This document shows, one piece after another, positions 42,193 through 45,597 of a stretch of 64,000 nt of DNA. Positions within the stretch are counted from its first letter, which is position 1. Each line of letters starts with the position of its first letter. Source of the DNA: Candidatus Roizmanbacteria bacterium. GTDB lineage: Bacteria; Patescibacteriota; Microgenomatia; UBA1406; GWC2-37-13. The stretch lies in NCBI GenBank assembly GCA_013335175.1, contig JAAXWC010000002.1, positions 62,001-126,000 of the forward strand, in the 5' to 3' direction. The notes under the pieces were generated by a model that saw nothing but the letters and a program-made list of their open reading frames with translations, was not told the DNA's origin and searched no databases. The translations under genes were made by a program, and so were the position numbers.

Positions 42193-43239
42193 TTACCCAA
42201 ATACTATCTCCGTTTTCTCAAACTCGGCGAGTTCAGCCAGTTGTACTTCTGTTGTTGTAATAATCGTTTGGTACTTTTCAATAAGATGTAAAACCAATTT
42301 TTTATTATGTGTATCTAACTCTGAAGAAATATCATCTAACAACAATACCGGCTTTTTGTGAAATAGTGCTTCGATAAGATAAATCTCGTAAAGCTTTAAC
42401 CAAAACACACTCAAACGCTGTTCACTCCGTGAACCATACGCATGAATATTTTTTTCGTTATCGGACACAAGATACATTTGAAAATCATCCTTCTGAGGCC
42501 CAATCGAGGTCTTTCGCATCCGTATTTCTAAATCATACGCCTTTGCAAGTCGTTCTTTTGTCATTTCATTTTTCACGTATTCCATCCGCAAAACACGATC
42601 CTCGAGCGAAACATTCGTATTAATTCCCGCCACGTATTCAGCACGTTTTGCAGTAATATAAGAAGCCATCTCTTCTAAATAATTGTCCCAAAATGGTAGT
42701 TGATCCCGCAACTCTTGTTCATTCTTATGAAGTTCTAATAGTTTGTTTCGTTTTCTGAGAGCATGTTCATAATTGCGTAGCTTGCTTTTGTATACCGGAT
42801 CGGTCAAAGAAAGCACTCGATTTAAATACTCACGCCGTTTATCTGGAGCACCAAGAACTATATCCATATGTTCTGGTGAAAAGAGAATTGCTTTTGTTGT
42901 AAAGTTTAAATACTGACCATGGGTCTTACCCGTTTTGTTTACATAAAAAGCTTTCTCAATCCGATCCCCTTTTTTCGTAAGTGCAATCTGAAAAAGAATT
43001 GGCAAACCTTCTTCCTTCCAAGTTGTCTCTACAATAGATTTTTCTTGTTCCCAGTAAACAAGCTCTTCTTCTTTTTGTTCACGAAAACCTATTCCATTCA
43101 TAGAAAAAAATATTGCCTCTAATAAATTGGTTTTGCCCCGTGCATTTTCTCCCACAATAATGGTAAGTTTTGGATGAATAGAAAAATCTCTAGCAGTAAA
43201 ATTACGAAAGCAAGTAAGGTAAATATGTTCCAACAGCAT
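42193..43239 (-). CDS. recF: DNA replication/repair protein RecF
   Basis: A 348-residue SMC-like ATPase that loads RecA at gaps. Walker A is [15 protein letters not shown], the middle is helical, and Walker B is [13 protein letters not shown] followed by the D-loop. The ABC signature region reads [11 protein letters not shown] where most RecF have a Gly-Gln-Gln version. Start [14 protein letters not shown] matches the family. It is not next to dnaA or dnaN here, contrary to many bacteria. Its ATG lies 5 bases after a TATAAT. Confidence 0.93.
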
Positions 43240-43258: not shown

Positions 43259-44590
43259 TTATCTCTTCTTCAGCAAAAATATTGTTTCTATAAAAGATGG
43301 TAAGCGAAAGAACGAACCTCGGACAATCGATACCTCTTCCTGATCTACAAAAAGCCGATGCCAGTATTTTTTGGGAAAAACCGAAATATGAGAAAAATCG
43401 CGCTTATGGAAATAGGAAATGTAGGTATTTTCCTGAGTATACATTTTATGTAAAATATATTTTTTCGAAACACGAATTGTTTCATCTACAGCTTTTTTTA
43501 TCTTTGAACGTTCCAAATGCTCTAATACATCGAATGAGAATACCAATTCAAACTGAGCATCTTCATAGGGAATTTTCACAACATCTCCCAGTTTCAAATA
43601 TGGTTTCATCTGATCTTCGGCCATCGCAATTGCGTCCTTAGAAATTTCAACGCCATATGCGTCAATACCAAATGATCGTAAAATACGAACTAACTCCCCT
43701 GTCCCACACCCAATATCGAGACAATTTTTTGGATTAATAAAAAATTTAATCAGAATAGCTCGATAATAGGTTACGACTGTACGTAGTAATTTAGTAAAAA
43801 AAGGATCTGCATATCCCAATCGATATCCTCGTTTCGCGTGCTTGTGCGTGTAATACTCGCGATCATAAAAGCTCGCATCTATGCGATACGGCATAATAAT
43901 AGTACCTTTAAAAGAATCTCCCTCTACTATTTTTGTGAGATTTTTAAAATCGGTACCATTAGTTACGATAACAGTTAGACCAAGTTTTTTTGCAAGCTGA
44001 GCCGCTACCGGATCAAAGGGAGTATTAATCCCCGGAGACCACGTTACACCTACCAAACTTTCCATTTCATTCCATGTCATTCGTTTGATTGGCTTTGCAT
44101 TTGGGTTTTGAGAAGGATCTGAATCATATACCCAATCTATATTGGACATATTTACAATTACATTTGCACCATAATCTCTTGCCAATATAACGGCATCATA
44201 ATCGGTAGACCAACCGGGTTTCCAACCTGCGCCAATTACCACTGGTTCTTTCCACTTATGAAGTTTTTTATCGTAATTCTCGATAATACGAGGGTGTGCA
44301 ATGTCTTGAAATATCGTTCGAAGTAAATGTCCGTTCAAATGAGTTGCGTGTATTCCTAACCAATCTAAATCCTCGTTAGAAAGTGAACCAATCACCGATT
44401 TCCCCGCATCGCGGTACTGACGAGCAGTTCGCCCGCCACCAGATACCAAGAAGAACCGCTTTCCTTTTTTTACCTGACCACGAATAAAGGTATTTAATCT
44501 TTTTAAAAATACTGTATCAATGCCTCCACTCGGAGAAATGAGGCTACCGCCAACAGAGAGAATTATAGGTGGCTCTTTATAGTGGATCAT
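43259..44590 (-). CDS. UMP kinase (archaeal-type) fused to a SAM-dependent methyltransferase
   Basis: A 443-residue fusion. Residues about 1-230 are an amino-acid-kinase-fold UMP kinase of the archaeal type: ILSVGGSLI, SGGGRTARQYRDAG, a Thr-Asp-Tyr-Asp-Ala segment, SNIDWVYDSDP and FDPVAAQLAKKLG with VTNGTD. It makes UDP from UMP. Residues about 275-443 are a class I methyltransferase: motif I LDIGCGTGEL (about 286-295), GVEISKDAIAMA and FSFDVLEHL. The methyl acceptor is unknown. The ATG at 44590 is chosen; a TTG at 44602 lies in the leader's T run. The leader holds a terminator and a short reading frame. Confidence 0.88.
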   Translation of the reverse strand: MIHYKEPPIILSVGGSLISPSGGIDTVFLKRLNTFIRGQVKKGKRFFLVSGGGRTARQYRDAGKSVIGSLSNEDLDWLGIHATHLNGHLLRTIFQDIAHPRIIENYDKKLHKWKEPVVIGAGWKPGWSTDYDAVILARDYGANVIVNMSNIDWVYDSDPSQNPNAKPIKRMTWNEMESLVGVTWSPGINTPFDPVAAQLAKKLGLTVIVTNGTDFKNLTKIVEGDSFKGTIIMPYRIDASFYDREYYTHKHAKRGYRLGYADPFFTKLLRTVVTYYRAILIKFFINPKNCLDIGCGTGELVRILRSFGIDAYGVEISKDAIAMAEDQMKPYLKLGDVVKIPYEDAQFELVFSFDVLEHLERSKIKKAVDETIRVSKKYILHKMYTQENTYISYFHKRDFSHISVFPKKYWHRLFVDQEEVSIVRGSFFRLPSFIETIFLLKKR

Positions 44591-44600
44591 ATCTTTTCGC

Positions 44601-44638
44601 AAAAAAAATCCCGCTGCCTCTTCGTTTATTTGCGGGAT
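44601..44638 (-). terminator. Terminator hairpin in the UMP kinase leader (candidate attenuator)
   Basis: On the minus strand ATCCCGC (44638-44632) pairs with GCGGGAT (44614-44608) over a 17-base loop, followed directly by a T7-8 run, 11 bases before the start codon. The next gene upstream diverges, so the only transcript to terminate is that of the UMP kinase gene itself. Confidence 0.6.
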
Positions 44639-44658
44639 GAAAAAATAACTCTGTACAT
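44626..44658 (-). CDS. Candidate leader peptide of the UMP kinase gene
   Basis: A 10-codon frame (MYRVIFSSRK) starts about 4 bases after the predicted transcript start, crosses a U-rich tract (GUUAUUUUUUCAU) and stops inside the terminator loop. A ribosome at that stop would cover the 5' arm of the hairpin. No Shine-Dalgarno sequence is expected for a leaderless frame. Confidence 0.35.
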   Translation of the reverse strand: MYRVIFSSRK

Positions 44659-44668
44659 ATTATAGGCT

Positions 44669-44697
44669 ATTATACTCTTAACTTTGACTTTCGTCAA
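44669..44697 (-). promoter_or_regulatory. Promoter of the UMP kinase-methyltransferase gene
   Basis: On the minus strand TTGACG (44697-44692), 17-base spacer, TATAAT (44674-44669). Transcription would start near 44662, giving a 72-base leader. The -35 abuts the -35 of the divergent promoter; together they form TTGAC-N4-GTCAA (44684-44697). Confidence 0.65.
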
Positions 44698-44718: not shown

Positions 44719-45597
44719 ATGAGAAGATCCCGAATAACCATTACCCTTCGGCAAAAAACGGTAGAACAGGTGGATCTGTTAATAGACCATAAACAAATTC
44801 GTAATCGTTCTCATGCTATCGAGTACATTTTGGACAACTATCTTCAGGGAAAAGTTCATAAAGCAATTATATTAGCAGGTGGACAAGGAACGCATCTGCG
44901 TCCATATACCTATGAGGTTCCAAAACCCCTTCTTCCTGTACAAGGAAAACCTCTCTTAGAACATCTGATTGAACAGTTAAAAAAAAGTGAAATTACTGAA
45001 ATTATTCTTTGCATCGGGTATTTAGGTGAAAAGATTAAAGATTATTTTGGCGACGGTAGTAAATGGGGAATTCACATTGTGTATCTGGAAGAAAAAGAGC
45101 CACTATTTACTGGAGGAGCTGTGAAACAAGCACAAGCACTCGTCCACGATGCACCCTTTCTTATCATTCACGGAGACATTCTGACTACGCTCTCGTTTCA
45201 GGATCTGATTGATTTTCATATCAAAGAACATGCCGTAGCAACTATCGCACTCTCTCCTACCTCACACCCGGGAGAGTACGGACAATTCAAACTGCAAGGG
45301 ACAAAACTGCTCGATTTTTATCAAAAATCAGATGCTAAGGACGTAAAAAGTCTGCTTGTTCACACCGGGATTTATGTCTGCGAACCTGAACTATTTCAGT
45401 ATTTTCCCAAAACGAGCGATACATTTTTATTGGAAGACATCATAACTAAAATCATCGATCAAAAAAAAGGAAACGGATTCATGTTTGAAGGACAGTGGTT
45501 TGATGTCGGAAGTACAGAAAACTACGAAAAGGCAATTAAGGAGTTTAAAACAAGCCCTTCCCCAGACCAAAAATCATCGAAACTAAAGAAACAATAA
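44719..45597 (+). CDS. Ribbon-helix-helix domain fused to a sugar nucleotidyltransferase
   Basis: A 292-residue fusion. Residues about 1-45 look like a ribbon-helix-helix DNA-binding domain (SRITITLRQKTVEQVDLL, then NRSHAIEYILDNYL). Residues about 47-280 are an NTP-transferase domain of the RmlA/GlmU/GDP-mannose-pyrophosphorylase type: LAGGQGTHLRPYTYEVPKPL, GEKIKDYFGDGSKWG, TGGAVKQA, HGDILT and WFDVGSTENY. His replaces the usual Arg in the GTRLRP loop. The enzyme part would make a nucleotide sugar, and the N-terminus may bind DNA, perhaps its own promoter (inference). The 3' end overlaps the converging pilin gene by 53 bases. Confidence 0.85.
   Translation: MRRSRITITLRQKTVEQVDLLIDHKQIRNRSHAIEYILDNYLQGKVHKAIILAGGQGTHLRPYTYEVPKPLLPVQGKPLLEHLIEQLKKSEITEIILCIGYLGEKIKDYFGDGSKWGIHIVYLEEKEPLFTGGAVKQAQALVHDAPFLIIHGDILTTLSFQDLIDFHIKEHAVATIALSPTSHPGEYGQFKLQGTKLLDFYQKSDAKDVKSLLVHTGIYVCEPELFQYFPKTSDTFLLEDIITKIIDQKKGNGFMFEGQWFDVGSTENYEKAIKEFKTSPSPDQKSSKLKKQ

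Follow-up and report, generated by a model that had tools for sequence, protein, structure and literature searches.

The window, a stretch of 64,000 nucleotides from a Candidatus Roizmanbacteria genome, carries on its minus strand a gene that fuses an archaeal-type UMP kinase to a class I SAM methyltransferase. This gene is followed by its conserved neighbour recF and faces a divergent gene in which a ribbon-helix-helix domain (RHH_1, over the cut-off) is joined to an NDP-sugar nucleotidyltransferase. A promoter, a short open reading frame (ORF), a candidate hairpin and a run of T residues precede the kinase start (Table 1). A preliminary description of this DNA had proposed a UTP-sensitive attenuator of the Escherichia coli pyrBI kind at this place, and direct reading found its coordinates for promoter, frame, hairpin, T run and kinase start to be correct to the base. 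Our reading of genomes covered the closed relative G026 plus about half of the window's own genome; genes were called mechanically, promoters were located by eye and by pattern, and the leader start was taken as the first suitable ATG.

Table 1. Features of the UMP kinase locus, in window positions
Feature	Position	Strand	Basis or status
-35 box TTGACG	44692..44697	-	Direct reading
-10 box TATAAT, spacer 17 nt	44669..44674	-	Direct reading; -10-like box equally placed in 31 homologues
Leader ORF MYRVIFSSRK plus stop, 10 codons (ATG at 44658, TAA at 44628-44626)	44626..44658	-	ATG 10 nt past -10 box
T6 run within leader ORF (U tract of the preliminary description; nearest-base coordinates)	44640..44645	-	Not kept in homologues
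Candidate attenuator hairpin, 7 bp, 17-nt loop (arms ATCCCGC 44638-44632 and GCGGGAT 44614-44608)	44608..44638	-	Homologues (31 loci): pairing kept, sequence not
T8 run completing predicted intrinsic terminator	44601..44608	-	T6-T9 in 31/31 homologous leaders
Archaeal-type UMP kinase (residues 9-232) and class I SAM methyltransferase (about 285-400) fusion (ATG at 44590)	43259..44590	-	TIGR02076, Pfam
recF, next gene downstream, conserved neighbour	42193..43239	-	TIGR00611; synteny
Divergent ribbon-helix-helix and NDP-sugar nucleotidyltransferase fusion	44719..45597	+	Pfam

The kinase domain reaches 176 bits with TIGR02076, above the curated cut-off of 158, and its closest solved relatives are Pyrococcus-type uridylate kinase structures, for example 2ji5 and 2bmu. 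The bacterial PyrH model is over its cut-off in just 5 of 37 relatives (G000, G001, G006, G017 and G041), 3 of which are without the archaeal-type gene, and the archaeal-type kinase is the sole UMP kinase found in most genomes of the order. The gene order in the named relatives, which are Ca. Roizmanbacteria and Microgenomates MAGs, runs from a ClpC-like gene and an M50-like membrane protein gene (both labels given by eye) through a T4SS pilin gene and, in some, an inverted RHH-nucleotidyltransferase gene to the kinase-methyltransferase and recF. Bacterial pyrH occupies the same slot adjoining recF, inverted, in G006 and G017 (L244 306-1055; L245 316-1047), and in L244 it lies between the pilin gene and recF, at the place of the archaeal-type kinase. 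A complementary distribution of this sort is the pattern expected where one UMP kinase has taken the place of a different one, and the locus points to an apparent non-orthologous replacement in place. Together with the TIGR02076 match, it backs the earlier identification of the gene as a UMP kinase. Two genomes have both bacterial PyrH and the archaeal-type kinase, and the window's own is among them, so that its archaeal-type gene need not be its sole UMP kinase.

The leader ORF of the window has ATTTTTTC in mid-frame and its stop codon in the loop of the hairpin; 10 bases separate the end of the T8 run from the kinase start. The leader length of 72 nt presupposes a predicted transcription start about 7 nt past the -10 box. 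Given the distance between ATG and -10 box, the ORF would be leaderless or nearly so, which bears out the earlier placement of its start close to the RNA 5' end. Few genes of this lineage have a Shine-Dalgarno motif: it was found at 42 of 829 genes (~5 %) on the whole chromosome of G026 and at 4 of 98 (~4 %) on a contig of the window's own genome (C37), and a -10-like box lies close ahead of the start in 359 of the 829. Gene starts in both thus appear to be largely leaderless, and a leaderless leader frame is natural in such a lineage. The window hairpin is unexceptional by energy (-10.4 kcal/mol, z -1.17), 24 of 200 shuffles or about 1 in 8 being as good. Since this energy alone is unremarkable, the case for the hairpin rests on the relatives.

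We found 31 distinct leaders, belonging to a Ca. Roizmanbacteria order and spread over three of its families, in which a -10 box, an ATG, a short ORF, a hairpin, a run of six to nine T and the kinase ATG follow each other. By its own terms, the preliminary description would have been refuted if close relatives lacked the hairpin or the leader frame; both are kept in these homologous leaders. What it proposed to look for, covarying stem bases and a conserved short frame over a U tract, is there in part: the stems stay paired, with 25 distinct stem sequences that are all complementary, and the frame is kept, but the U tract is not. Pairing was read from individually located stems; a MAFFT alignment of the hairpins put several stems in the wrong place. 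The leader ATG lies 10-16 nt past the -10 box in 23 of the 31 (0-22 nt overall), and this is about the distance at which the kinase itself starts in relatives without the attenuator, which suggests that the leader frame occupies the place of a leaderless kinase start. The kinase ATG comes 4-18 nt after the T run, which leaves too little space there for the kinase to have a promoter of its own beyond the hairpin, and such a promoter was rejected. Readthrough from the kinase leader possibly reaches recF as well.

A tree was built from 42 kinases, of which 25 have the device; it excluded some rows, including the window. On it the trait changes 5 times compared to 13.4 in shuffles, and it is present in families f1, f2 and f3. 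This pattern is consistent with an ancient trait that was lost several times. In roughly one third of the relatives the kinase has a leaderless start and no attenuator, and the control is therefore dispensable.

The leader frames range from 4 to 42 codons and are not conserved in sequence; codon or peptide conservation was looked for in the leader peptides of the 31 loci and none was found. The position of the stop is another matter. It lies 5-19 nt ahead of the stem in 24 of the 31 leaders, compared to 4.8±2.0 in shuffled leaders with a maximum of 14 in 3000 (like all our shuffle tests, this one ignores how the loci are related). Among the others, the window, L014 and L036 have their stop in the loop, a minority geometry (3 of 31) to which the 17-nt loop of the window adds a second minority feature; the frame passes through the hairpin in L011, L012 and L088, and L022 is an outlier at 39 nt. 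The 24 regular frames have an excess of A at codon position 1 and of T at codon position 3 that goes beyond stop avoidance and is reached by 0 of 2000 shuffles. Stop placement and codon periodicity support the view that the leader frame bears marks of selection.

In E. coli, a terminator is repressed when a ribosome sits on a stop codon shortly ahead of it, almost fully within several bp; at 17-18 nt the termination efficiency is 0.12 or 0.8 depending on the sequence, and past about 27 nt there is no repression (PMC4824070). The gaps found here fall in this range. Most of them, at 10-19 nt, belong to the outer part of the range where the ribosome blocks folding. The physical principle and the distances are those of the stop-codon-repressed Rho-independent terminators of that study, which differ in having been measured after whole genes in E. 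coli reporters and not as a regulator.

On these grounds we consider ribosome-coupled attenuation as such to be highly probable, and the fuller reading, a pyrBI/pyrE-like attenuator of the UMP kinase gene with its leader frame at or very near the RNA 5' end, to be likely. From the DNA we infer the transcription start, the termination, the translation of the leader frame and the signal. By default, the RNA polymerase would halt at the hairpin-T8 terminator ahead of the kinase. A ribosome loaded on the 5' AUG and trailing the polymerase closely would get to the leader stop before the hairpin folds; closure of the stem would then be blocked and transcription would enter the kinase-methyltransferase gene. 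Low UTP would slow the polymerase and so lead to readthrough. The terminating ribosome in the window would cover the 5' arm itself.

A closely coupled ribosome likewise prevents the terminator in E. coli pyrBI (PMC5021804, PMC4824070). The PyrL leader resembles ours in its short ORF and intrinsic terminator (predicted here) and in acting on pyrB, as the like device would in relatives. It differs in that our leader ORF, of 4-42 codons and with no Shine-Dalgarno motif, sits at or near the 5' end, has its stop mostly 5-19 nt ahead of the stem and keeps no U-rich pause tract, and in that the gene here is a UMP kinase. The nearest geometry to the majority of our leaders is that of E. coli pyrE, where the stop codon lies about 8 nt ahead of the attenuator stem; the upstream frame there is a whole gene, rph, whereas here it is a short leader ORF. 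The trp and his attenuators also place a leader ORF before an intrinsic terminator, but the leaders described here have no regulatory codon runs and no antiterminator, which rules out an amino-acid leader attenuator. The attenuators of ABC-F genes (msrD and others) rely on drug-stalled ribosomes (PMC10314930); they too have a leader ORF and a terminator ahead of the gene, but our leaders show neither a stall peptide nor an alternative fold.

At 12 of 28 loci, for the most part from the same order, a like device precedes pyrB, the first gene of the pyrB-carA operon (L236, L238, L248, L251, L263, L264, L265, L267, L268, L269, L270 and L272). The leader stop lies 3-12 nt ahead of the stem in 7 of the 11 tested; with 0-12 nt as the range counted, shuffled leaders give 2.3±1.3 compared to these 7 (p 0.0016). 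The frames read, for example, MIINLFEK, MIIKLFKK, MIIYY, MIIKNLNFGK, MTILDNILSY and MKIITNWPKII. At one of these loci, L268, the leader frame crosses the hairpin in frame into pyrB. In three close relatives (L255, L256 and L258) the pyrB start codon is within an imperfect hairpin, and a run of eight or nine T follows inside the coding sequence.

What the signal would be is a separate question. The U-rich tract that had been put forward as a UTP sensor is not supported: only 12 of the 31 leaders have a T run of at least 5, several have no U tract at all (the window has T6), and the pyrB leaders are 47 % A. Over the 31 leaders T amounts to 0.357 and A to 0.351, with a slight enrichment in the mean longest T run (3.9 compared to about 3.4±0.25 in genomic controls, p 0.02-0.04). 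The proposal of a pyrBI-like attenuator is thus supported as regards an attenuator with a leader frame near the 5' end, seen at 31 loci, but not as regards the U-tract sensor. What strengthens the pyrimidine link itself is that relatives have a like device ahead of pyrB-carA. In view of this recurrence, on UMP kinase and on pyrB-carA, the supply of pyrimidine nucleotides is the most likely signal; granted ribosome-coupled attenuation, we would give a pyrimidine signal a good likelihood, the alternative being the general rate of translation or of the polymerase. Against a pyrimidine signal, pyrB is unattenuated in the window's own genome, and so is pyrG both there and in G026.

Arrangements of a related kind were also seen elsewhere. 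In G026, purF (L135 13808-13960) has a leader frame, MNKHKVSKAINFIK, whose end is 2 nt ahead of the terminator, and a small gene that is DUF2294-like by eye (G026:C1 21880-22000) has an 18-codon frame with its stop in the hairpin loop; the device is consequently not confined to pyrimidine genes. The purF attenuator was uninformative as a comparison case, as purF is present in just 4 of 56 relatives and patchy in the order. In the window's own genome, an ABC-F ribosomal-protection-like gene on contig C37 (L168 3300-3450; NF000355, over the cut-off) carries a terminator close to its promoter, whose hairpin is overlapped by a possible frame, MKPAQGLVFFCN; this leader is possibly an attenuator of the antibiotic type. 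The same genome has a T-box-like leader on contig C28 (L218 14569-14760; RF00230 at 35 bits, under the gathering threshold of 93), in which a T8 terminator lies ahead of a gene that is Asp/Asn-tRNA synthetase-like by eye.

A rival explanation is that the same ribosome-coupled attenuator answers a general signal, be it the supply of ribosomes, their initiation on leaderless mRNAs or the speed of the polymerase, rather than pyrimidine supply as such. We regard this as possible but rather unlikely. The lack of a conserved U tract and of codon or peptide conservation in the leaders, the near disuse of Shine-Dalgarno motifs in the lineage and the related arrangements on the purF, DUF2294-like and ABC-F genes all agree with it. 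A strict scan for the architecture found it at 2 of 1050 genes in G026 (the UMP kinase gene and one small protein gene) and at 1 of 648 genes in the sample of the window's own genome, again the UMP kinase. Among these genes, about 1,700 and all called mechanically, there were thus 3 matches, of which two are UMP kinase. A general signal is hard to reconcile with so strong a pyrimidine bias, with UMP kinase at 31 loci and pyrB at 12 of 28 loci compared to a single other gene among the roughly 1,700 scanned.

A constitutive throttle appears improbable; here the leader would form a small terminated RNA or encode a small protein, and a constant share of the polymerases would read through with no regulation. 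A fixed terminator needs no frame with its stop at a set distance from a stem that varies in position, and the recurrence on pyrB would go unexplained; the lack of conservation in the leader peptides speaks against it as well. In favour of a throttle, the kinase does with a leaderless, unattenuated start in a number of relatives.

It is conceivable that a bound factor governs the terminator, whether a PyrR-like protein, a riboswitch ligand or the divergent RHH-nucleotidyltransferase protein, and the RHH gene is indeed divergent from the kinase in about a dozen lineages. The device is, however, equally present where the RHH gene is absent. An antiterminator was sought upstream of the hairpin, where folding reaches -6.7 compared to -6.5 kcal/mol in shuffled sequences and the 5' arm is rarely masked, and the Rfam covariance models give no match for the leader up to E 1; an antiterminator or a riboswitch is ruled out on these two results. 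With neither an alternative fold nor conserved sequence in the leader, control by a bound factor is very improbable. As there is no antiterminator, occupancy of the stem by something, or an altered pace of the polymerase, must decide between termination and readthrough.

The intergenic region of the RHH loci has a further feature. All of them carry TTG(A/C)(C/T)-N4-GTCAA between the divergent genes (44683-44697 in the window), a palindrome that the TTGACG -35 box forms with GTCAA (44687-44683) and that overlaps the divergent gene's own -35 box. We do not claim TTGAC-N4-GTCAA as an RHH operator, since two overlapping back-to-back -35 boxes explain its perfect association with the divergent gene equally well; the palindrome may be only these two boxes or an operator of the fusion protein as well.

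That the hairpin is the 3' terminator of an upstream gene, or a chance structure as its unremarkable folding energy would allow, is hardly credible: the upstream gene is divergent in the window, which rules out the former there, and at every RHH locus, and across 31 loci the promoter is followed by a hairpin, with 25 different stems that are all paired.

Taken together, these results favour a ribosome-coupled attenuator with pyrimidine supply as its likely signal. A wider proposal, plausible though we make it tentatively, is that Roizmanbacteria have a general UTP-responsive attenuator with a leaderless leader frame for pyrB-carA, the committed steps of the pyrimidine pathway, and for what is usually their only UMP kinase, working with neither PyrR nor an E. 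coli-like U tract. To our knowledge, UMP kinase has not been known as a target of attenuation. Among papers free of subscription, our literature search found nothing on attenuation in candidate-phyla bacteria, and titles and abstracts on UMP kinase and attenuation mention no described case. How genes are regulated in candidate-phyla bacteria has hardly been explored. If this conserved attenuator does depend on coupling, transcription-translation coupling would operate on leaderless mRNAs in these bacteria and UMP kinase could be a target of attenuation. The pyrBI logic would then be present far from the Proteobacteria, through convergence or deep ancestry.
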